Below, in pieces: positions 11,301 through 29,400 of a stretch of DNA of 64,000 nucleotides. The notes under the pieces are model-generated. The model saw only the letters and a list, made by a program, of their open reading frames with translations. It was not told the origin of the DNA and did not search any database. The DNA comes from Owenia fusiformis (taxonomy: Eukaryota > Annelida > Polychaeta > Sabellida > Oweniidae). The first letter of the stretch is position 1. Every line of letters begins with the position of its first letter. The translations under genes were made by a program, and so were the position numbers. The stretch is from assembly GCA_903813345.2 (NCBI GenBank), contig CAIIXF020000008.1:27016822-27080821 (forward strand), written 5' to 3'.

Positions 11301-14300
11301 TTAATAAAACCTTGCTGAGATTGCACATCTTGTGTGCAAGTGTACTCATTTTGTTTGTGATTGTACTCATCTTGTTTGTTAGTACACTCATCTTGTTTGT
11401 GAGTGAATTTACCTTGTTTGCTAGTGGACACATCTTGTTTTCAAGCATGCTTATCTTGTCTATGATTGTACTCATCTTGTTTGCAAGGGTACTCATCTTG
11501 TCTATGATTGTACTCATCTTGTTTGCAAGGGTACTCATCTTGTTTGTGAGTGTACTCATCTTGTTTCAAATATTTCATAAATAAAATATCAGTACCATAA
11601 GTTATTCCATCAGTGAGTTTATTCAACATTATTACCACCTTGCCGGGCCAGTTCTAGGGGTTTTAGTGCTAGTTTAGAAGGCATTCATTTTACTATATCG
11701 ACCTGAGAAATGTGTGACGTCAAAGTGGTGGTCCATATGGACCGGTCTAGAATATATTCTGGACCGGCAATTTTTCCCCGGGAAATGAGATATCGTTCAG
11801 TGCGTAAAATTTACTTGGTATTTAAGCCCTGGTCGTTAACGGTGGTAATAATACTAATAACGTCATCTCTGCGAGCAATATAGTGAAATATTGGACCTTG
11901 GGCCTTCGGCCGGCCCTCAGTCCAATATTTCACTATATTGCCCTAGAAATGACGTTATTGTACTATTGTACATGTATTTCCAGATGTACTTGTACACTGT
12001 ACAAGTATTTACATATTATGTACTTGTACACTGTAGATATATTTCCAGATGAACTTTTACACTGTAGTGTGCATGTACGTACATATGTACTTTTACAATG
12101 TACATGTATTTTTAGATGTCTTTGTACAATGCATTTCCAGGTGTACTTGAGCAGAAGTCATTGGGTCTGCAGCAGTTGATAGCAGTCCATCTGTATGTGC
12201 AGGATATGAAAGACTTTGCAGAGATCAACCTGGTCTATAAGAGCTACTTTGGGATAAATCCACCTGTCAGGTACTGTTGTACTAAGGTTTAACATAAATT
12301 GCAGATTGTATTTGGTCTGGGTGATTAGCCATTAAAATCTTGATTCTTAGTAATTCATGAAATAAAATAGGGTTCAGGGTCCTTGCCAAAATTTCTTTCA
12401 GAATCATGCAGCACTTCACCATTCTGAGAACTTTTCAAGTGATTTTGGGTCAAAGTCGTCAAATATGAACCCATCCTGAAATTTGAAATTTTTTGAAAAG
12501 TGAACCACCTTGGCAAAATCTGGGTCTTGCCCAGTTGGTGATTTGTGGAAACATATTGAAAATACCCCTTTATATTGTGAATCTGTTCTTCAGGGTCTGT
12601 GTGCAGGCAGATCTCCCTGAGAATGTACTTATTCAGATAGACTGTTTAGGACATGTTGAGAGAGAGTCCTCACCACATTGTAACACCATGCATGTTCAGA
12701 GCCTCTCTCATTGGGCACCAGCAAATATTGGACCTTACAGTCAGGCTGTGCAAGTAAGAAATCCATGCATCCTAATGTACTTCTGTACATATTTTTTTCA
12801 AAAAGTACTTAGATTGCTCCAGCAAATATTGGACCTTACAGTCAGGCTGTGCAAGTAAGCCATCTATAGATCCTAATGTACAAGTATGTACATGTCAATT
12901 GTTGTTGTTGGCCATCTTCAAGTTTTTGAAGTAGTAACGTAAAATTAAAATAGGCTCTGTTCTTTTGTACATATTTTTTTCAAAAAGTAGTCAGTACCTT
13001 AGATAAAAATTACCTGAGGTTTTTGGTTAAAATATGAAAAATGCAAAATTAAACAAAAGAGAATTATATTTCCCCTCGGCGTGAAACGAATGGATTTTGA
13101 GTGGAATTATGATCTAATCCCCTAAGCCAAATAACACTTTCAAAAAAATAATGAGACATTACATCTTAGATATTATATATTAATGTTTTAAAGTGATTCC
13201 CACATTTATTTATCAGTCACCAACAACTGTCCAAAGCATAGAAGATAACTGTCCATATGTCATTGTTTCCAGTTTGGTGACTTTGTGTATGTTGCTGGTC
13301 AGATTGCGCTATGTCCCGCAACTCTACAACTCGTGGAAGGCGGGATTATACCTCAGACAAAGTTGTCACTACGTCACGTTGCCATGGTGCTACAAGCCAT
13401 GGACCCTCACTGCATTCTCACCAGTATTGTTTCTGCTGTGTGCTATGTTACTGACAGTGAATATGTACGCTATGTTCAGAAAGAATGGAAAGATGCCCTA
13501 GAAGCATTTCAGGTCTGTTTTCATTTGTACATAAATGATCCTAAAGTAGCGGCAAAAAATCAAGAGTGTAAAATGTTGAAAGCAAATTCCATAAACCATG
13601 CCAGTGTTTCTCTTAAACTCCTTCTTTTTTTTAAAATTATTACCTGAAAAAAAGGTTGAGATATCTGATGGAATATTGAGGTTGTTCAATAAATCAAAGA
13701 TCATGCACAATTGTTGAGAATTATTGTGATCATAAAATTCAGAACTGTTGAATTGAACTTTTGGAATTTGAAGCAAATTGACATGAAATGTAAACAAAAA
13801 ATGAGCCTGGCCATAGGAAAACTGGTCTTATCACAAAAATGAAAATTGTCCTACATAGCAAAAAATATGCCCAAGATTAAAAATGTGCTAAATTCAAATC
13901 CGACTTTTTGGTCTATATATGCAAGGAAAAATTGGTAAGACAAGCCATGGCTCATTTGAAAGGTCTCTTTGTGCTTTCTAAGATAAACAAAATATCAGAA
14001 TATTGTATAATCTGTGATAAGACCCCTTTTCCTGTGGCCTGGCTCAAATAATGTATATATTGATATTCTCAACTCATCTCGGAGTCTTAATTTTGTTTCT
14101 CCATTAAACAACTTATATTCATCCATACATGAGAAAGTATTTATATTCAGACTACACTTACATATATGAACAATCAGTCATAGTTTTAATCCGTTGAAAA
14201 TATTTTGTAGAAATTAAATACAGTATTATTAGAGGGGGCATTATGTTATATAATACACCCTACCTATATGGTACTTACTATTTTTTTTTAATTCAATACA

Positions 14301-17300
14301 ATTTCAGATCAGTCCTAAATGGCGGGAAGCTCCAACTACTGAGGGTCTGTTGGAGATAGTGGTGGTTCCCGCGCTACCCCGTGGAGCTCTTGTGGAATGG
14401 CAGGTCTATGCTAACACTAAGAAAAATGATGAATGGAGTCGTAAGTTGAATTTTTACCTCTGGATATGAGATATCCCTTGAGCTCACATGAAACCCTCGA
14501 AATAAAAACTCAAGAATGAATTAACACCAAGCAATTGCACTCTATTCATAACAGCTCAATTTCTCTTTTGTAAGTAAGGGTTAGCCCTGAAAAGGGCTGT
14601 TGAGTTTCAAGTATGATAGACTCTAGATTAGATGTATAGTTCACGGAGCAGATCAAGATGTTGTTTGGAGACATAGACCATCATCTTGGCATACTTTAGG
14701 TACATATCTCTGGTCTCCTCCAAGCAAGACACACGCACTTGAAGACTGTAGGCAAACTCTAACTTTCCATCTCTCACAGCTCCAACTTGACGGGCTTCTA
14801 GCTGGTTGATCTCATCATTGAGGCATATAATCTGTGAGCTTGTCTTCCCGTAGCGAGTCTTGATGTCCAAGAGGGCTGCCTTGATGGTATCTGTTGATGG
14901 GTAGAGCTGCGAGTAAATGCTGTTGTTGGCTAGTGTTGTCATATTGAGCTGTGTTGGTGATATGAGCAACTCTTGATATGATGGGGTATTTATAGTGAGT
15001 TGTAGTTGAGGATTTAGAACTGCTCAAATGTCAGATTATATCTACATGCAGATCCAGGGTCCTACTCACTTGTCATATTGTGTATTATTTTATAATATTA
15101 ATCTTGCTCATACATCTAGCCAATGAGGCGGTTATAATCTGTATGTTTAACACCTAATTGCAATGAGCTCATTCAGGGCCGTCAGATGGGGGGGTGCGAT
15201 GGGTGCGACCGCACCCCCCTTTGTCACCCCCCAAAATAAATTTGAAAAAAAAATTGAAAAAATTTTTTTTAAAAATATTTTTTTTGTAATTTTTTTTTCA
15301 TTGACTCATACACTTTGAAAGTACCCAGAAAGCACCAAATAGCATCTTAAAATTGTAAAATTTTCTAGGGGTATTGGCCACCCCTCACACCCCCCACAAA
15401 ACAATGGAAAAGTTCTTAATTTATTTTAGTGTTTTGTCTCAGACACTTTTAAAGTGCCCAGACATCATAAAATAGCTCCTTGATATAGTTAGTGTTTTTG
15501 GGGGACTTGCTCCCCCTCTTGTATCTTGCACTTTCATAGACCCCCCCCCCCCCCTCTGGCGCCCCCCCCCTTGACCCCCCCCCCAAAAAAAAATTGTGAT
15601 TTTCTCAAATTCTTTAATTGACTCATACACTTTGAAAGTGCCCAGAAAGCACCAGATAGCGTTGTAAAATTGTAAAATTTTCTAGGGGGAGTAGGCCACC
15701 CCTCACACCCCAAACAAAACAATGGAAAAGTTCTGAATTTGTTTTATGTACTGTTTCAGACACTTTTAAATTGCCCAGACATCATCATCATCCTTGATAA
15801 AGTTAATGATTCTGGAAGACTAACACTTACTCGCCCTCTGGCATCCCCACTCCACCTCCCCCTCTGGCAGCCCCCCCCCCAAAAAAAATTTCAAATTTTT
15901 TTTATTGACTTTATTGACTAAAGTGCCCAGAAAGCACCAAATAGCATCTTAAAATTGTAAAAGTTTCTTGGGAAATAGGCACTTTTAGGCACAGACACTT
16001 TTAAAGTGCCCAAACTTCATCGAATAGCACCTTGATATTGTAAATTTTGATATCGGGGACAAACACTTGCTCCCCCTCTGGCACCCCAGCCCCACCTCCC
16101 CCTCTGGCACCCCCCCCCCCCCCTTGACACCCCCAAAACTTGAAAAAAATTGTGATTATTTTTCAATGTTTTTACTGACTAATACACTTTAAAAGTGCCC
16201 AGAAGCACCAAATATCATCTTTAAATTGTAAAATTTTCTAGGAGAGTTAGCCACCCCTCACCCACAAAACAAAAGAAAATATTCTGAATTTCATGTATTG
16301 TCTCAGACATTTTTAAGTGCCCAGACATCATCAAATAGCACCTTGATATGGTCAATGTTTCTGGGGGACAACCCCTTGCTCCCCTACTGGCACCACATCC
16401 CACTTCACCCTCTCATCCACTTTGACACCCCCAAAAGAATTTGAAAAAATACACATTTTTCTTATTGACTCATAACGCACAGGCGTACCAGATGGTTGCA
16501 AATTCGCTCCAAATACAACCAAATTTCAAAATTTTCCTGGGGGAGACCCCCCTGAATGCTCGGTTTTTTATTCACTCAACTCTTATTCCCATGGTGGTGG
16601 CGTACTACTTGGAAACATACACTTTGAAAGTGCCCAGAAAGCACCAAATAGCATCTCAAAACTGTAAAATTTTCTAGGGAGAGTGGACCACTCCTCACAC
16701 CCCCCACAAAACAATTGGAACTCTTGGAAGTTGCATTTGTTAATTCCAAACCAATATAGGGAGTAACTGAGCCCCCCTCCCCCCCCCCCCCCCCCCCCCC
16801 CTCTGACTTACACGATTTGATTTTCGCGGCCAAAAAATTGACAATTTTATATTCTCTTTAGTAAGCTAAAAACCGCACCCCCCTTGGAGAAAAGTGTCTT
16901 ACGGGCCTGTCATTACTTAATCACTTTGTTATTTTATTGTTTTAAAAGTTAATCTTTGAATTATAAGCTTTGGTTTACAAAAACATATTAATTAACTTAT
17001 GAACAAAAGTAATGGATGATTTAAAAAGGTGGGATCAATATGTTTTCTAATAAAAAATATCTGGAATATTTTATTTGAAAATATATTTAATTCTGTTTAA
17101 ACACTTGCATATCAGTAGATCTCTACTCATTGGTGATTAAATTATTTAGAGAAAGTCTATGTGCAGTCATACATTCACTAATCAAAGCATGGGTGTCCAA
17201 AGATGATAAAACACTCAAGAAAAACAATGAAATAAGGGCCAGTCAGGTGTTTAAACAATCAATCACTTATTGTGAAAACATCGTGCATAGATACTTGGTT

Positions 17301-20300
17301 TTCTGTAATTCTGGGGTGGGACATAAAAAATTCAGCATTTTGCAGAATCACTGACTTTCCTACCATTATGATTTTATCATGAAATTCCATCCCCATTCCA
17401 TCACGTTTCAGTTCGTTTGTGATCGGCAGTTCTTTCCAATAAATTGGTTGTTGATTTCTGCTTCAAGTTTCAGTATGGGATCGTAAACTTTAAACAATCA
17501 AAAGTTGATAGATTCATCAAGAAAATTGATTTAATCATCATTTGCAAAAAATTGCAGAATTTTGTTTTTTTGATGCAGAAAACTAGGATGTGTGATAAAT
17601 TATGTTATAAGTATTCTCTACATCAACATGATAATGATATCGTAACAACATAATGTTTTTGTAACAAGTGTTTGATTGTTCAAACACCTGTCTGGTCAAT
17701 GTTTCATTGTTTCTATGGAGTATTTTATTATTTTTTTGAGACCCATTCTTTGAATCTTATGATAATTGTGTTTTCGAATTGGAAACAATTAAATGGGAAT
17801 GAATATCAAACACACACTAAATGCAGATAATAAAGGCCGAAATCTTGGAGGGGAAGGCATAAATATGTGTGAAAGCAGAACTTGTTTTTGTATTCTTATA
17901 TTAATAATGGGTCCATAATGACCATTACATGTAAATTAGATGAATACATGCAGTCACTAACACTGTGCAGAATCACATTCATCAAAACACCAAGAACAAC
18001 ATTCACAATTTAATTTCTCTTTTTTAAGTAAGGGTTAGCCCTGAAAAGGGCTGTTGGGTTGAAGTTAGATCGCAGTTTACATGTAGAGTTCACGGAGCAG
18101 ATCAAGATGTTGTTTGGAGACATAGACCATCATCTTGGCATACTTCAGGTACATATCTCTTGTCTCCTCCAAGCAAGACACACGCACTTGAAGACTGTAG
18201 GCAAACTCCAACTTTCCATCTCTCACAGCTCTAACTTGACGGGCTTCTAGCTGGTTGATCTCATCATTGAGACATATAATCTGTGAGCTTGTCTTCCCGT
18301 AGCGAGCCTTGATGTCCAAGAGGGCTGCCTTGATGGTGTCTGCTGATGGATAGAGCTGAGAGTAGATGCTGTTGCTGGCTAGTGTTGTCATGTTGAGCTG
18401 TGTTGGTGATATGAGCAACTCTTGATATGATGGGGTATTTATAGTGAGTTGTGGTTGAGGATTTAGAACCGCTCAATGTAAGATTATATCTACATGCAGA
18501 TTCAGGGTCCTACTCACTTGTCATATTGTGTATTGTTTTATAATATTAATCTTGCTCAAACATTTAGCCAATCAGGCGGCTTTAATCTGTATGTTTAACA
18601 CTTGATTGCAATGAGCTCATTACTTAATCACTTTGTCATTTTATTGTTTTAAAAGTTAATCTTTCAATTATAAGCTTTGGTTTACACAAACATATTAATT
18701 AACTTATGAACAAAAGTAATGGAATGTTTTGACAAGGTGGGATCAGTATGTTTTCTAATAAAAAATATCAGGAATATTTTATTTAAAAATATATTTAATT
18801 CTGTTTAAACACTTGCATATCAGTAGATCTCTACTCATTGGTGATTAAATTATTTAGAGAAAGTCCATGATATGTGCAGTCATGCATTCACTAATTAAAG
18901 CATGGGTGTCCAAAGATGATAAAACACTCAAGGAAAACAATGAAATAAGGGCCAGTCGGGTGTTTAAACAATCAAACACTTGTTGTGAAAAGATACTGTG
19001 CATTAGATACTTTTATTTCTGTAATTCCGGGGCAGGACAGATTACATCAAAATTTCAGCATTTTGCAGAATCACTGATTTTCCTAAATGAGTACCATTAT
19101 GATTTTATCATGAAATTCCATCCCCATTCCATCACGTTTCAGTACGTTTTTGATCAGCAATTCTTTCTAATAAGTTGGTTGTTGATTTCTGCTTCAGCTT
19201 TCAGTATGGGATTGTAAACTTTAAAACAATCAAAAGTGGATAGATTCATCAAGAAAATTGATTTAATCATCATTCGAAAAAAATTGCAGAATTTTGTTTT
19301 TGGAAAATTTGCGCAAAATTTTGTTTTTGGAAAATTTGCGCAAAATTTTGTTTTTGGAAAATTTGCGCAGAATTTTGTTTTTGGAAAATTTGCGCAGAAT
19401 TTTGTTTTTTTCATGCAGAAAACTAGTATGTGTGATAAATTATGTTATAACTATTCTCTACTTCAACATGATGATAATATTAGTTAGATGTAACTTAATG
19501 TTTTTATAACAAGTGTTTGATTGTTTAAACACCTGTCTGGCCAGTGTTTCATTGTTTTTATGGAGTATTTTATTATTTTTTGAGACCCATGCTTTGAATC
19601 TTTTGATAAATGTGTTTTCAACTTGGAAACAATTAAATGGGAATAAGTATCAAACACACTAAATGCAGATAATAAAGGCCGAAATCTTGGAGGGGAAGGC
19701 ATAAATATGTGTGAAAGCAGAACTTGTTTTTGTATTCTAATATTGATCATTGGTCCATAATGACCATTACATGTAAATTAGATGAATACATGCAGTCACT
19801 AAAACTGTGCAGAATCACATTCATCAAAACACCAAGAACAACATTCACAATTCAATTTCTCTTTTGTAAGTAAGGGTTAGCCCTGAAAAGGGCTGTTGGG
19901 TTGAAGTTAGATCGCAGTTTACATGTAGAGTTCACGGAGCAGATCAAGATGTTGTTTGGAGACATAGACCATCATCTTGGCATACTTCAGGTACATATCT
20001 CTTGTCTCCTCCAAGCAAGACACACGCACTTGAAGACTGTAGGCAAACTCTAACTTTCCATCTCTCACAGCCCTAACTTGACGGGCTTCTAGCTGGTTGA
20101 TCTCATCATTGAGGCATAAAATCTGTGAGCTTGTCTTCCCGTAGCGAGCCTTGATGTCCAAGAGGGCTGCCTTGATGGTATCTGCTGATGGATAGAGCTG
20201 AGAGTAGATGCTGTTGTTGGCTAGTGTTGTCATGTTGAGCTGTGTTGGTGATATGAGCAACTCTTGATATGATGGGGTATTTATAGTGAGTTGTGGTTGA

Positions 20301-23300
20301 GGATTTAGAACCGCTCAATGTAAGATTATATCTACATGCAGATTCAGGGTCCTACTCACTTGTCATATTGTGTATTGTTTTATAATATTAATCTTGCTCA
20401 AACATTTAGCCAATCAGGCGGCTTTAATCTGTATGTTTAACACTTGATTGCAATGTGCTCATTACTTAATCACTTTGTCATTTTATTGTTTTAAAAGTTA
20501 ATCTTTCAATTATAAGCTTTGGTTTACACAAACATATTAATTAACTTATGAACAAAAGTAATGGAATGTTTTGACAAGGTGGGATCAGTATGTTTTCTAA
20601 TAAAAAATATCAGGAATATTTTATTTAAAAATATATTTAATTCTGTTTAAACACTTGCATATCAGTAGATCTCTACTCATTGGTGATTAAATTATTTAGA
20701 GAAAGTCCATGATATGTGCAGTCATGCATTCACTAATTAAAGCATGGGTGTCCAAAGATGATAAAACACTCAAGGAAAACAATGAAATAAGGGCCAGTCG
20801 GGTGTTTAAACAATCAAACACTTGTTGTGAAAAGATACTGTGCATTAGATACTTTTATTTCTGTAATTCCGGGGCAGGACAGATTACATCAAAATTTCAG
20901 CATTTTGCAGAATCACTGATTTTCCTAAATGAGTACCATTATGATTTTATCATGAAATTCCATCCCCATTCCATCACGTTTCAGTACGTTTTTGATCAGC
21001 AATTCTTTCTAATAAGTTGGTTGTTGATTTCTGCTTCAGCTTTCAGTATGGGATTGTAAACTTTAAAACAATCAAAAGTGGATAGATTCATCAAGAAAAT
21101 TGATTTAATCATCATTCGAAAAAAATTGCAGAATTTTGTTTTTGGAAAATTTGCCCAAAATTTTGTTTTTGGAAAATTTGCGCAAAATTTTGTTTTTGGA
21201 AAATTTGCGCAAAATTTTGTTTTTGGAAAATTTGCGCAAAATTTTGTTTTTGGAAAATTTGCGCAGAATTTTGTTTTTGGAAAATTTGCGCAGAATTTTG
21301 TTTTTTTCATGCAGAAAACTAGTATGTGTGATAAATTATGTTATAACTATTCTCTACTTCAACATGATGATAATATTAGTTAGATGTAACTTAATGTTTT
21401 TATAACAAGTGTTTGATTGTTTAAACACCTGTCTGGCCAGTGTTTCATTGTTTTTATGGAGTATTTTATTATTTTTTGAGACCCATGCTTTGAATCTTTT
21501 GATAAATGTGTTTTCAACTTGGAAACAATTAAATGGGAATAAGTATCAAACACACTAAATGCAGATAATAAAGGCCGAAATCTTGGAGGGGAAGGCATAA
21601 ATATGTGTGAAAGCAGAACTTGTTTTTGTATTCTAATATTGATCATTGGTCCATAATGACCATTACATGTAAATTAGATGAATACATGCAGTCACTAAAA
21701 CTGTGCAGAATCACATTCATCAAAACACCAAGAACAAAATTCACAATTCAATTTCTCTTTTGTAAGTAAGGGTTAGCCCTGAAAAGGGCTGTTGGGTTGA
21801 AGTTAGATGGCAGTTTACATGTAGAGTTCACGGAGCAGATCAAGATGTTGTTTGGAGACATAGACCATCATCTTGGCATACTTCAGGTACATATCTCTGG
21901 TCTCCTCCAAGCACGACACACGCACTTGAAGATTAGGCAAACTCTAACTTTCCATCTCTCACAGCCCTAACTTGACGGGCCTCTAGCTGGTTGATCTCAT
22001 CATTCAGGCATATAATCTGTGAGCTTGTCTTCCCATAGCGAGTTTTGATGTCCAAGAGGGCTGCCTTGATGGTAATTGCTGATGGGTAGAGCTGAGAGTA
22101 GATGCTGTTGTTGGCTAGTGTTGTCATGTTTAGCTGTGTTGTCATGTTGAGCTGTGTTGGTGATATGAGCAACTCTTGATATGGTGGGGTATTTATAATG
22201 AGTTGTGGTTGAGGATTTAGAACTGCTCAAATGTCAGATTATATCTACATGCAGATCCAGGGTCCTACTCACTTGTCATATTGTGTATTGTTTTATAGCA
22301 TTAATCTTGCTCAAACATATAGCCAACCAGGCAGCTCTAATCTGTATGTTTAACACCTGATTGCAATGAGCTCTTTACTTAATCACTTTGTTATTTTATT
22401 GTTTTAAAAGTTAATCTTTCAATTTTAAGCTTTGGTTTACACAAACATATTAATTAACTTATGAACAAAAGTAATGGATGTTTTAAAAAGGTGGGATCAA
22501 CATGTTTTCTAATAAAAAACATCTGGAATATTTTATTTGAAAATATATTTAAGTCTGTTTAAACACTTGCACATCAGTAGATCTCTACTCATAGGTGATT
22601 TAATTATTTAGATTAAGTCCATGATTTGTGCAGCCATGCATTCACTAATCAAAGCATTGCTGTCCAAAGATGATAAAACACTCAATAAAACAATGAAATA
22701 AGGGCCAGTCAGGTGTTTAAACAATCAAACACTTGTTGTGTAAACATTTTGCATAGATACTTGGTTTTCTGTAATTCCGGGATGGGACATTTTCAGCATT
22801 TTGCAGAATCATTGATTTTCCCAAATGAGTACCATTATGATTTTATCATGAAATTCCATCCCCATTCCATCATGTTTCAGTTCGTTTGTGATCAGCAATT
22901 CTCTCCAATAAATTGGTTGTTGATTTCTGCTTCAAGTTTCAGTATGGGATTGTAAACTTTAAACAATCAAAAATTGATATATTCATCAAGAAAATTGACT
23001 TAATCATCACTTGAAAAAAATTGCAGAATTTTGTTTTTGGAAAATTTGCGCAGAATTTTGTTTTTTTCATGCAGAAACCTAGTATGTGTGATAATTATGT
23101 TATAACTATTCTCTACAGCAACATGATAATGATATAATAATAACATAATGTTTTTATAACAAGTGTTTGATTGTTTAAACACCTGTCTGGCCAGTGTTTC
23201 ATTGTATTTAGGAAGTGTTTTATTATTTTTTTGAGACTCGTGCTTTGAATGTTTTGATAAATGTGTTTTCAACTTGGAAACAATTAAATGGGAATAAGCA

Positions 23301-26300
23301 TCGAACATACACTAAATGCAGATAAAGAAGTTGAAATATGGGAGTGGAAGGCATAAATATGTGTAAAAGCAGAACTTGTCTTTTATATTCTTATATTGAC
23401 CATTGGTCCATTATGACCATTACGTGTAAAATAGATGAACACATGCAGTCACTAAACTTCTGTGCAAAACCACATTCATCAAAACACCAAGAACAACATT
23501 CACAATTCAATTTCTCTTTTGTAAGTGAGGGTTAGCCCTGAAAAGGGCTGTTGGGTTGAAGTTAGATGGCAGTTTACATGTAGAGCTCACGTAACAGATC
23601 AAGATGTTGTTTGGAGACATAGACCATCATCTTGGCATACTTCAGGTACATATCTCTGGTCTCCTCCAAGCAAGACACACGCACTTGAAGACTGTAGGCA
23701 AACTCCAACTTTCCATCTCTCACAGCTCTAACTTGACGGGCTTCTAGCTGGTTGATCTCATCATTGAGACATATAATCTGTGAGCTTGTCTTCCCGTAGC
23801 GAGCCTTGATGTCCAAGAGGGCTGCCTTGATGGTGTCTGCTGATGGATAGAGCTGAGAGTAGATGCTGTTGCTGGCTAGTGTTGTCATGTTGAGCTGTGT
23901 CGTCATGTTAAGCTGTGTTGGTAATATGAGCAACTCTTGATATGATGGGGTATTTATAGTGAGTTATGGTTGAGGATTTAGAACTGCTCAAATGTCAGAT
24001 TATATCTACATGCAGATCCAGGGTCCTACTCACTTGTCATATTGTGTATTGTTTTATAATATAATCTTGCTCAAACATTTAGCCAATCAGGCGGCTCTAA
24101 TCTGTATGTTTAACACCTGATTGTGATGAGCTCATTAGTTATTGTTTTAAAAGTTAATCTTTCAATTTTAAGCTTTGGTTTACACAAACATATTAATTAG
24201 CTTATGAACAAAAGTAATGGATGTTTTAAAAAGTTGGGATCAATATGTTTTCTAATAAGATCTGTATGTTTAACACCTGAAACAAACTTTTGTTTTAAAC
24301 TATGGACAGAATTTAATGGTTGTGTATTAAAAAAAGAGACATCAACATGTAAAAGTAAAAGAAACATCTTCAACATTTTACTTGCTCAAATGTCATTTTA
24401 TATCTACATGCATACTCAGGGTCCTTCTCACACATGATTATCATGTATTTTTTTTCTAATGCTGATCCTTCTCAAATGTCACTTAGAGAGATTATTATTG
24501 ATTTGTCTAACACCCTTTTCGCAATTAAGTCTAACACATAATCTAACCTATTTGTTATTGCAGGTGAATTATTATTTATTTGTTTTTTTTTAATTTTAAA
24601 ATTGTAAATAAAGACAAGTTGTAGTGAATGATCAATTAAGTCATTCCTAAGGGAAAAAATCTTGAGGTAGTTGTTATGGCATTTTTTGGGAATACAGTGT
24701 CGAGATTTTGGCAGTTTGAGCGAAAAAATCTCTCAAAATCATGCAGTTTTTCACCATTCTGAGCACTTTTTAAGTGATTTTGGCCATTTTTGGACCAAAA
24801 TTAACACAAGTGAACCCCCCTGGAATTTTTCAAGAAGTGAACCCCCCTTAGCAAATCCTGGCACCAGGCCTGATATTCCTGTGTGTTAACCACTCAGTAT
24901 TCTTTAAATATAGATGTTGGTCAAAGAATTTATCAAAATGAAATACTCATCAAAAACATAAAGCACCCTGCAAATACAGTGAAACACCCAGCAAAAACAA
25001 TAAAACATCAATTGTTTTACCAATCACACTCGAATTAAAAAAATCAAAACAAAGAAACACTGGTATATGAACAATGAAGCACCTGGAATTTGCACTATAT
25101 TTGAAAATTCATAATTCATTTCTCTTTTGGAAGTAATAGTGGCCCTGAAAAGGGCCGTTTTGGTGTGGCTGAGATTCATGGATCTATAGTATAGCTTGTA
25201 GGCGATGGTTCTCCAAATGAGCACACATCTCTGTGTATCTGTCCATGCTACTGGCAGTGTACAGGTAGAACATGTTCAGTGTCTCCTGTAGGCAGCTGAT
25301 TTGCAAGTAGAGGCTGTAGCCTGTGTGGTAGAGCTGCTTCTCCCTGGCCCTCTTGTACCTCTCCTCTAGAGCCTCTAGCTTCTCTGTCAGCAGGACTATC
25401 TGAGTACGACTCATCTCACAAACACGTCGTAACTTCAGCATGTCTTTAGCAGTTGGCAATTCTGGTTCCATACTGTGTGGATCTACGTTCATGGTTCAGT
25501 GTTTGATTGTTTGCAGTTGTGACAACTATTGTGCAATGCAAGAAGATGCAGGTATATATACTAGCATGTCTGGCAGCTTGAGCAGGCTGGTAATGGGATC
25601 ACTGAGTCTTTTAACTGGCACATTGAGCTGTTGGATTGAATGATAACTGACAATCTGATTGGCTGGCTAATTACATGACATTGATCATGTGTTATAATCC
25701 AGAGTGGCATGTAATTTTTGATTATCTAAATATGTTTCTTAGTCCCAGAGTTTAATTGGCTTATTCACTTGCGCAAGATGTTTTTAAAAAATATTTTTTT
25801 AATTATTTATTCATGCAATTGTGCATTTATTCATTAATTTTATTTGTTTGTTAAATTTTATTTCAATGTTCTTTAATTATTTCTTTATTTGACAAATAAG
25901 TGATTAAAAACTAAAATATTATTTTAAAAGTGATGAAACTATATAATTTAAGAAAAAAAGGAGATTAATTCATTCTTATTATTGCAAGCCATGGCAAAAA
26001 TGGTTCTCTGATAACTGCAAAATCAGCCTGGGTATGAACATGAGACTTGTAGAGAAACTTGACCATGACCAAACCAGTGTTTGTTATTATGTCACCACCA
26101 AAAATGGTGACATATTGTTAGTCTCCAACTTTTTGTGGATGGTGTTCAGGGTTCGGCATTCTGCATCTGTAACAAGTGGCAGGTGGTGACATTTAGCATG
26201 TTAATGCCTTGTTATAGTATTGCCATTGAATCATGTTTTCTCCCTGTGTTGTAGGTGCCATATCTATCAAGCAGTCCCCAGGCCATTACAAGATCAACTT

Positions 26301-28165: not shown

Positions 28166-29400
28166 TTAGTCTAACATGTACATTTCCAGTATTTTATTAC
28201 ATTGAGAATACCCATTGTATTGTGTTTGAAAGTTGTTATGCTCTGCCATTAATGATCTCAGCATGACTGTGCCGAGTTCTGAAAAGGGCTGATTGTGATG
28301 TTGCTGATTGTGATTATGCTGATTATTATTATGCTGATTGCGATTATGCTGATTGTGATTATGCTGATTATGATTGCACTGATTGTGAAAGAACAATTAT
28401 GCCTTTGCTAGAAATTTACACTTTGACATGATTAATAACTCTCCCACGTACGAAACATGTCATAATTCATTGGCTTTGTTATGTTTATATATTTACTGAA
28501 AGTTTCATGTAAAAATATCAATTATTGATAAAGTTAGAGCATATAGTGCATTACTTCTGGGACAACCCTCGTATAGTGAAACCCTGAACAGTAAAAATGT
28601 CTAATCGGAACACCACTGGGGGGATGACTGGGACCCAGCTAAAAGCATTCGGATTAAGAGGTGTTCACATTTCAAAGTTTTTGCATTCATGGGATACAGG
28701 AGGTTGAAAAAATATGAACACATTTCCTGTGAATATTTACAGTTCAATTGACTATGAAACTGTTGCACACCTATATTTTGAATCAAAGTGTTCAGATTAG
28801 GAAGTGTTCAGATTAGCCAGGTGTTCAAATATACAAGTTTCACTGCAGTTCTTTTATATACTGGTATATGTTATACAATGATATAGATTGAGATGTAAAT
28901 ATTCTCTCACTGATGCAATATTGTCAGTGCTGTGTATGTTAGCAATTTTTGATAGACACGAAATATTATATGCTTTAATTAGTGCCAAGTTACATGATAA
29001 TGTAGGCTATATTTTATATAATAGCATGCATGATAGTGCAATTTATTACTTTAGGAATACAGTGCAGTACCGGGAGAAATTCTGGTGGTTCCAATGTTTT
29101 TACATGAAGTACAGGTTAGGGGGATGGTGTCAGGTTGAGAGTAAAATTAAATTGATATTGTTACAATAAAGTAGGTTAAAGGCCCCATGCAAAGTTAATG
29201 ATGATTTCATTCATGAAGAATGTTGATTTTTTGACGAATTGGGTGGAATCATCATTTTCAACTTTCATTAAATTGGGGGAGAAGTGCAGTGGTCTGCCAT
29301 ATAGAATATTAATTTATTATGATATTACAAAGTACATGTACCATCTTACAATGTTTTCCTGTTATGCCTTTGGTCCTACGTGTCCAGGATAAAGGAAATG
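28166..29400. other. DPH6 3' flank: short repeats and a MITE-like relic, no gene seen
   Basis: There is a ~12-bp repeat (ATTATGCTGATTG) at 28,290-28,390 and a copy of the TAGTGAAACC/GGTTTCACTG inverted-repeat family at about 28,573-28,848. Open frames are short and mostly repeat-derived. Confidence 0.6.

Follow-up and report, generated by a model that had tools for sequence, protein, structure and literature searches.

We analyzed a 64,000-nucleotide (nt) stretch of the Owenia fusiformis genome (contig CAIIXF020000008.1; hereafter, the window) that carries a tandem array of five copies of a small gene and, beside them, a paralogue that we call F. The encoded proteins are not histones, and the genes appear to be laid out and terminated as replication-dependent (RD) histone genes are, with a hairpin and a purine-rich element behind the stop codon. 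Outside histone mRNAs, a hairpin end in place of a poly(A) tail is hardly known. Judged from sequence, the array is probably part of a large class of non-histone genes whose mRNAs would be formed by the route of RD histone mRNAs, that of SLBP and U7; we give this a probability of roughly 0.78. The features of the locus are listed below. Array copies 1, 2, 3 and 5 were identified from the list of open reading frames (ORFs) and by a genome protein search, and the array stem-loops by a pattern scan.

14628-14942, minus strand: array copy 1, intact ORF, 104 amino acids (aa)
18077-18391, minus strand: array copy 2, intact ORF, 104 aa
19919-20233, minus strand: array copy 3, intact ORF, 104 aa
21810-22145, minus strand: array copy 4, frameshifted pseudogene with an early TAA, stem-loop still intact
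23574-23906, minus strand: array copy 5, intact ORF, 110 aa
25184-25492, minus strand: paralogue F, intact ORF, 102 aa, 28% identity to the array protein
14583-14598, minus strand: histone-type stem-loop of copy 1, AGCCCTTTTCAGGGCT
18037-18052, minus strand: histone-type stem-loop of copy 2, AGCCCTTTTCAGGGCT
19879-19894, minus strand: histone-type stem-loop of copy 3, AGCCCTTTTCAGGGCT
21775-21790, minus strand: histone-type stem-loop of the broken copy 4, AGCCCTTTTCAGGGCT
23534-23549, minus strand: histone-type stem-loop of copy 5, AGCCCTTTTCAGGGCT
25117-25161, minus strand: histone 3' end of F, RF00032 match, with stem-loop GGCCCTTTTCAGGGCC at 25141-25156
14559-14570, minus strand: downstream element of copy 1, CAAAAGAGAAAT
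18013-18024, minus strand: downstream element of copy 2, AAAAAGAGAAAT
19855-19866, minus strand: downstream element of copy 3, CAAAAGAGAAAT
21751-21762, minus strand: downstream element of copy 4, CAAAAGAGAAAT
23510-23521, minus strand: downstream element of copy 5, CAAAAGAGAAAT
25118-25129, minus strand: downstream element of F, CAAAAGAGAAAT
14989-14994, minus strand: TATAAA of copy 1, 52 nt 5' of the ATG; the other array copies have the same spacing
22192-22197, minus strand: TATAAA of copy 4
25555-25560, minus strand: TATATA of F, 68 nt 5' of the ATG
15135-15140, minus strand: promoter word AGATTA 5' of copy 1
25695-25700, minus strand: promoter word GGATTA 5' of F
25658-25662, minus strand: CCAAT box of F
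14254-14469, plus strand: exon taken as the last of DPH6, reading ...PRGALVEWQV... before its stop

A preliminary description of the window, made from its letters alone, had reported six intact genes, each ending in a perfect minus-strand stem-loop. All six stem-loops were recovered by the pattern scan. A frameshift disrupts the copy at about 21.8-22.15 kb, which leaves five intact genes. In the five intact genes the stem-loop lies 24-29 nt past the stop and the proteins fall within the 102-110 aa described; the upstream TATA and CCAAT motifs are likewise present, CCAAT lying further up. As for the downstream element, said to be conserved, it is exact in five of the six copies and altered in the one whose stem-loop starts at 18037. 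The array had also been placed inside a DPH6 intron, which is not where it lies: DPH6 exons run on the plus strand from about 6.8 kb, and because the exon ending at about 14,469 carries what we take, from its motif, to be the DPH6 C-terminus, the gene precedes the array and is convergent with it.

When up to two mismatches were allowed, the stem-loop pattern matched the window eight times against 0.45 expected, a number reached in none of 100 shuffles. For the covariance model RF00032 (Histone3), the gathering score was met in the window by F alone (38.9 bits), with the five array copies below it. No introns are evident, and the genes of the window, like those of the wider family, read as single ORFs between TATA and hairpin. 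Elsewhere in the window, a sequence that resembles the hairpin and departs from the pattern at one position lies at 28275-28290 (minus strand), with no downstream element seen by eye, and two array spacers (19154-19414 and 20996-21310, minus strand) hold a minisatellite, one frame of which reads as KTKFCANFP repeats.

The six genes belong to a far larger family of about 94 loci, 92 of them recognized with their 3' untranslated region (UTR), plus L129 and L155. These are spread over nine large contigs (C1, C3, C4, C5, C6, C7, C8, C10 and C12) of a 498-Mb genome, whose twelve largest contigs among those seen measure 32-62 Mb, in line with the twelve chromosomes reported for O. fusiformis (PMC9539403), and the family clusters are located away from the core histone arrays. 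Searches with tblastn gave 85 matches for the array protein and 77 for F (E up to 10, many of them weak), and a hidden Markov model (HMM) iterated from fetched ORFs settled at 93 ORFs, with no matches between 1e-6 and 10 in its final round; the very diverged members L046, L050, L062 and L135, which this HMM contributed, could be coiled-coil look-alikes. It should be noted that the census was seeded in part by stem-loop matches, and the figure that comes from protein searching only is the following: a search with a single member, L068, gave 83 matches at E up to 1, and a hairpin, mapped by hand, is present at 77 of these 83 loci (query included). Conservation of the stem-loop beside relatives, which the preliminary description had proposed as a check, is thus what is found within this genome. 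The proteins are under purifying selection, with a median dN/dS of 0.20 over 38 disjoint family pairs and values of 0.09-0.19 for pairs from the window array; ORFs shorter than 95 aa were excluded from these values and from the counts of isoelectric points (pI) and TATA boxes given below. As far as tested, there is no sign of a viral or bacterial origin: viral contigs held no relatives of L068, L080 or L092 in a search that reaches close relatives only, and no exact stem-loop with element; L068 had no relatives in genome_contigs, nor did array copy 2 in phage records. Similar proteins (LRLxLxxxEGVRNMFYEYA) may also exist in other spiralians.

A hairpin with a 6-bp stem and a 4-nt loop, with one unpaired stem position allowed, was found in 87 of the 92 family 3' UTRs, most commonly as GGTCCTTTTCAGGACC (41), GGCCCTTTTCAGGGCC (15), AGTCCTTTTCAGGACT (10), AGCCCTTTTCAGGGCT (5), GGTCCTTTTAAGGACC (4) or TGCCCTTTTAAGGGCA (3), and in most members it lies 22-155 nt from the stop. 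About 12-14 nt 3' of it there usually stands an AAAAGAG-type element whose spacing is constant while the flanks differ; by a stricter scan, hairpin and element at fixed spacing follow 75 of 93 ORFs. The hairpin is retained in 16 of 18 representatives below 70% identity. Nine of the 87 UTRs contain two or three hairpins; where two or three stand in tandem at L005, L021, L026, L075 and L079 (a minus-strand gene), the AAAAGAG element occurs only behind the last. The exact pattern of stem-loop plus element occurs at 75 sites in the 498 Mb, compared with 0 for the reversed control, and these comprise 48 sites of this family (47 and the frameshifted L129), 7 of H1 genes, 17 at other fetched loci and 3 unfetched, the matched letters of the last three being equal to those of a dispersed repeat described below. 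Genome-wide, RF00032 gave 75 scored matches, 73 of them over the cut-off, which were assigned to this family (28), to histone genes (25, namely 20 H1 and 5 H2A or H2B) and to other loci (22); this list is a lower bound, as the core histone arrays were not among the scored candidates.

Judged from the aligned UTRs, the stem varies by compensatory changes across dozens of paralogues. Among 79 distinct rows, 99.2% of stem cells are paired (92.5% in shuffles), 40 cells have both sides changed (10.5 in shuffles) and the covariation score is 0.256 (0.120 in shuffles), with none of 500 shuffles reaching any of the three values; all slid versions of the stem alignment score lower. As such tests are inflated by the relatedness of the rows, a count of state changes on a tree is useful, and on a protein tree of 85 rows, in which 41 of 80 inner branches are open, pair 1 of the stem changed at least 11 times, counting unpaired states, and pair 3 at least 4 times.

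The histone genes of the same genome provide the reference for these 3' ends. In the core-array unit L144, GGTCCTTCTCAGGACC and elements such as CTTACAAAAGAGAAAT stand behind H4, H3 and both copies of H2A, one of which has an altered frame. H2B, its frame altered as well, is followed there by a hairpin one loop base short with the element CTTACAAAAGAGATAT behind it; the H1 loci end in GGCCCTTTTCAGGGCC or a similar hairpin with the same kind of element. Since the histone genes of this genome share the type of hairpin and element, the family uses the local histone code. The linker histone H1 genes with hairpins occupy 20 loci dispersed outside the core arrays (e.g. L001-L003, L006, L007 and L009-L014). 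The core-histone complement published for O. fusiformis, an H4-H3-H2A-H2B unit with H2A on the opposite strand, in two large arrays and a small cluster (PMC12153100), matches this genome in unit order and layout; the main text of that source nowhere uses the term 'stem-loop', and its passages on histone clusters do not mention the family genes. Of the processing machinery, the SLBP RNA-binding domain (PF15247) is encoded in two exons on C5. Among the literature matches listed, as judged by title and start of abstract, with subscription literature outside the scope, non-histone genes with histone stem-loops are unreported. With the RD histone genes of metazoa the family shares intronless ORFs, TATA and CCAAT, tandem arrays, a hairpin after the stop and the AAAAGAG element. 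It differs from them in its non-histone product, in its upstream RGATTA words, in having no core-histone promoter element and in having up to three hairpins in a row.

Of 90 ORFs, 76 have a TATA box 40-130 nt ahead of the ATG (the commonest position, 86, accounts for 26); in a downstream control window the figure was 6 of 52. Among six-letter words, enrichment over a set of 16 diverged promoters is greatest for GATTAA (29 against 3.1) and GGATTA (28 against 3.9). RGATTA occurs in them 49 times, at least once per promoter, against 10.6 in shuffles (standard deviation 3.3, maximum 21 in 300), while coding sequence (6,066 bases) contains it twice and downstream sequence (2,645 bases) three times. 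The sites mostly lie 100-250 nt 5' of the ATG, and the diverged members also have CCAAT boxes in common. Histone promoters lack a counterpart, as GGATTA is present in only 2 of 20 (4 core and 16 H1); the four core histone promoters have in common the element GTGGATTC(A/T)G(A/G)CTGCA. RGATTA is a type of site bound by K50 homeodomain proteins (Otx, Pitx, bicoid). Among such factors, LEUTX is described as an activator targeting TAATCC, like others of the K50 type (PMC6258689). Two members, L080 and L136, were left out of the 16-promoter set; they are open frames in which neither a stem-loop downstream nor RGATTA in the upstream stretch was found, and they are perhaps polyadenylated in the manner of replacement histones.

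By AlphaFold2, the array protein is predicted to be an antiparallel two-helix hairpin (helices 17-57 and 61-103, mean pLDDT 89.8), as is F (pLDDT 82.2), each model having been built from five window sequences. Across 18 representatives (19 before L127, with its shifted start, was dropped), a Q in helix 1 is invariant; conservation is otherwise strongest at R, Y, R and A, which precede the turn, and at Y, S, L and L, which follow it. The near-neutral character ascribed to the proteins holds for the window, where the array copies have a pI of 7.7-8.5 and F of 6.4, and does not hold for the family, in which 69 of 90 ORFs have a pI below 5.2, most with acidic tails. Pfam gave no significant match, and no histone or linker-histone domain, for three window proteins and 18 members; matches to SAICAR synthetase, TBCA, DUF1985 and others were below the curated cut-offs where given, or weak. 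All Foldseek matches had E values above 0.001, for either model against the PDB and for the array model against BFVD, and profile and sequence searches of the PDB returned coiled-coil-like matches only, of which the BAP31 coiled coil (profile search, E 1.1e-4) was judged to reflect coiled-coil bias. Nor was there a significant structural or profile match to ESCRT-III/CHMP, the seryl-tRNA synthetase arm, prefoldin or other helical hairpins.

If the family mRNAs are formed as RD histone mRNAs are, the steps would be those of established histone biology, in part as given in PMC7614891: SLBP would bind the hairpin, the U7 small nuclear ribonucleoprotein would pair with the AAAAGAG element, and CPSF73 would cut between the two. 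The message would then carry no poly(A) and so would be made and be stable mainly during DNA replication. The family is probably expressed in replicating cells; that this includes the early embryo is a guess by analogy, to which we would give somewhat less than even odds. At best guess, the protein might be a small factor, for instance one that binds histones or chromatin, which cells in rapid division, possibly those of cleavage stages, would need in bulk along with new histones. The preliminary description envisaged an S-phase-coupled, SLBP/U7-processed chromatin or replication factor; of this, the non-histone nature of the proteins and the histone-type cis-elements of the 3' ends are supported, and the coupling, the processing and the role are putative.

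Several observations weigh against this reading and need to be considered. A U7 snRNA gene was not convincingly found: the genome-wide search gave no match over its cut-off, and the U7 pattern was no commoner than control patterns; of six candidate matches, three share flanks and so lie in a repeat, and in none was a U7-like hairpin seen by eye. Six of the 83 loci in the L068 search have no good hairpin; at L120, L127 and L132 a hairpin with a single change was rejected by the filter, and at L080, L136 and L155 none was found downstream. Of the five covariation measures, two stay at the level of the shuffles (double-changed pairs number 2, with 2.0 in shuffles, and additional pair types 5, with 5.1), the double changes are confined to stem pairs 1 and 3 of six, and four rows have an unpaired A-C as the closing pair 1. 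Over all 90 ORFs, GGATTA stands upstream of 27 and RGATTA of 62, and the promoter word is therefore weaker in the recently expanded clusters. The core histone promoter element is absent from 90 of 90 family promoters; as it is also absent from the 16 of 16 H1 promoters tested, its absence is no argument against RD expression. Of 89 ORFs, 22 have AATAAA or ATTAAA at most 155 nt from the stop, so that polyadenylation may occur. Finally, neither sequence nor structure indicates a specific biochemical role.

These points bear on two other accounts of the 3' ends. The genes might be bimorphic like H2A.X, with histone-type ends in S phase and poly(A) otherwise. H2A.X, itself a histone in distinction to the family proteins, can use hairpin-type 3' ends in S phase according to PMC3188798, and the 22 hexamers and the multiple hairpins in 9 of 87 UTRs would suit such a scheme; given that 67 of 89 ORFs have no such hexamer within 155 nt, we regard it as doubtful for the family. 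Alternatively, a 3' cassette may have been captured once from a histone gene and persist mainly through recent copying, with the hairpin doing little and the messages polyadenylated further on. Many copies are indeed recent tandem duplicates, the broken copy 4 has kept its hairpin, some genes have poly(A) hexamers near the stop and the two flat covariation measures fit as well. Compensatory changes in 40 stem cells, retention of the hairpin in 16 of the 18 representatives below 70% identity and the constant spacing of the element between differing flanks speak against it, and we hold this account to be improbable.

As for the proteins, that they are divergent histones or linker histones would explain the gene plan and the 3' end directly, but histone homology was rejected from the Pfam scans of three window proteins and 18 members, as the preliminary description had also judged, and the two-helix models show no histone fold; with the acidic pI of most members, we attach next to no weight to this explanation. 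A hairpin that has no relation to histones and binds nucleic acids or acts as a scaffold, such as a tRNA-binding arm of the seryl-tRNA synthetase kind or an ESCRT-III type, is a tentative candidate. Basic residues are conserved close to the turn, 2 of 18 members match Pfam Seryl_tRNA_N weakly (best E 0.093), and CHMP3 and aq_298 (a seryl-tRNA synthetase) are among the top Foldseek rows, all of which agree with it; none of these rows reached E 0.001, and hairpins of this kind are similar to many proteins. That the protein handles chromatin or histones is weakly favored and still doubtful, and is suggested by just two things, its acidic tails in most members and the co-regulation with histone genes that is expected.

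The reading that the family uses the histone 3'-end route should also be seen alongside other non-histone loci with histone hairpins in this genome. A Tc1-like transposase ORF (DDE_3; L147, G000:C3:1550300-1553600) has a hairpin 52 nt past its stop and a AAAAAGAG element, with no long inverted repeats found within 3.3 kb, and transposase fragments adjoin hairpins at L067 and L070. A dispersed repeat without a long ORF (L030-L034, L039, L045, L145 and L146) carries up to three histone hairpins and a AAAAAGAG-type element, two of its copies being 97% identical over 1.8 kb. A second non-histone family encodes Cys-rich proteins of about 100 aa (CRCVICAVHLNK...; L059-L061, with a related fragment at L140), with the hairpin 19 nt past the stop and no Pfam match for the L059 protein. 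GDSL-like ORFs have their hairpin 28 nt (L018) and 14 nt (L055) from the stop, L018 and not L055 passing the Pfam cut-off, and L025, inspected by eye, contains a fragment like them. Hairpin and element also accompany small non-histone ORFs at L138, which has four upstream RGATTA words, and at L066 and L071. A broader and more speculative proposal, which we put forward tentatively, is that the histone 3'-end machinery serves as a general expression channel here, with the roughly 90 hairpin-protein genes and the other families (Cys-rich, GDSL-like, basic coiled-coil, Tc1-like transposases and the dispersed repeat) making up a non-histone regulon that is coupled to replication and free of poly(A), and whose main family a K50 homeodomain factor might activate in the early embryo.

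What had been described for six genes is thus confirmed in part and is much more extensive, and neither the roughly 94 loci, nor the mostly acidic proteins, nor the RGATTA-rich promoter had been anticipated. If true, some 90 conserved non-histone genes with histone-type ends would break the histone-only rule and the SLBP/U7 route would be recruitable by new genes, and data selected for poly(A) would be expected to miss such genes. With the family one could ask, in a natural setting, what portions of a histone gene suffice for tying the supply of a protein to DNA replication, and it would add a new group of small proteins predicted to be helical.

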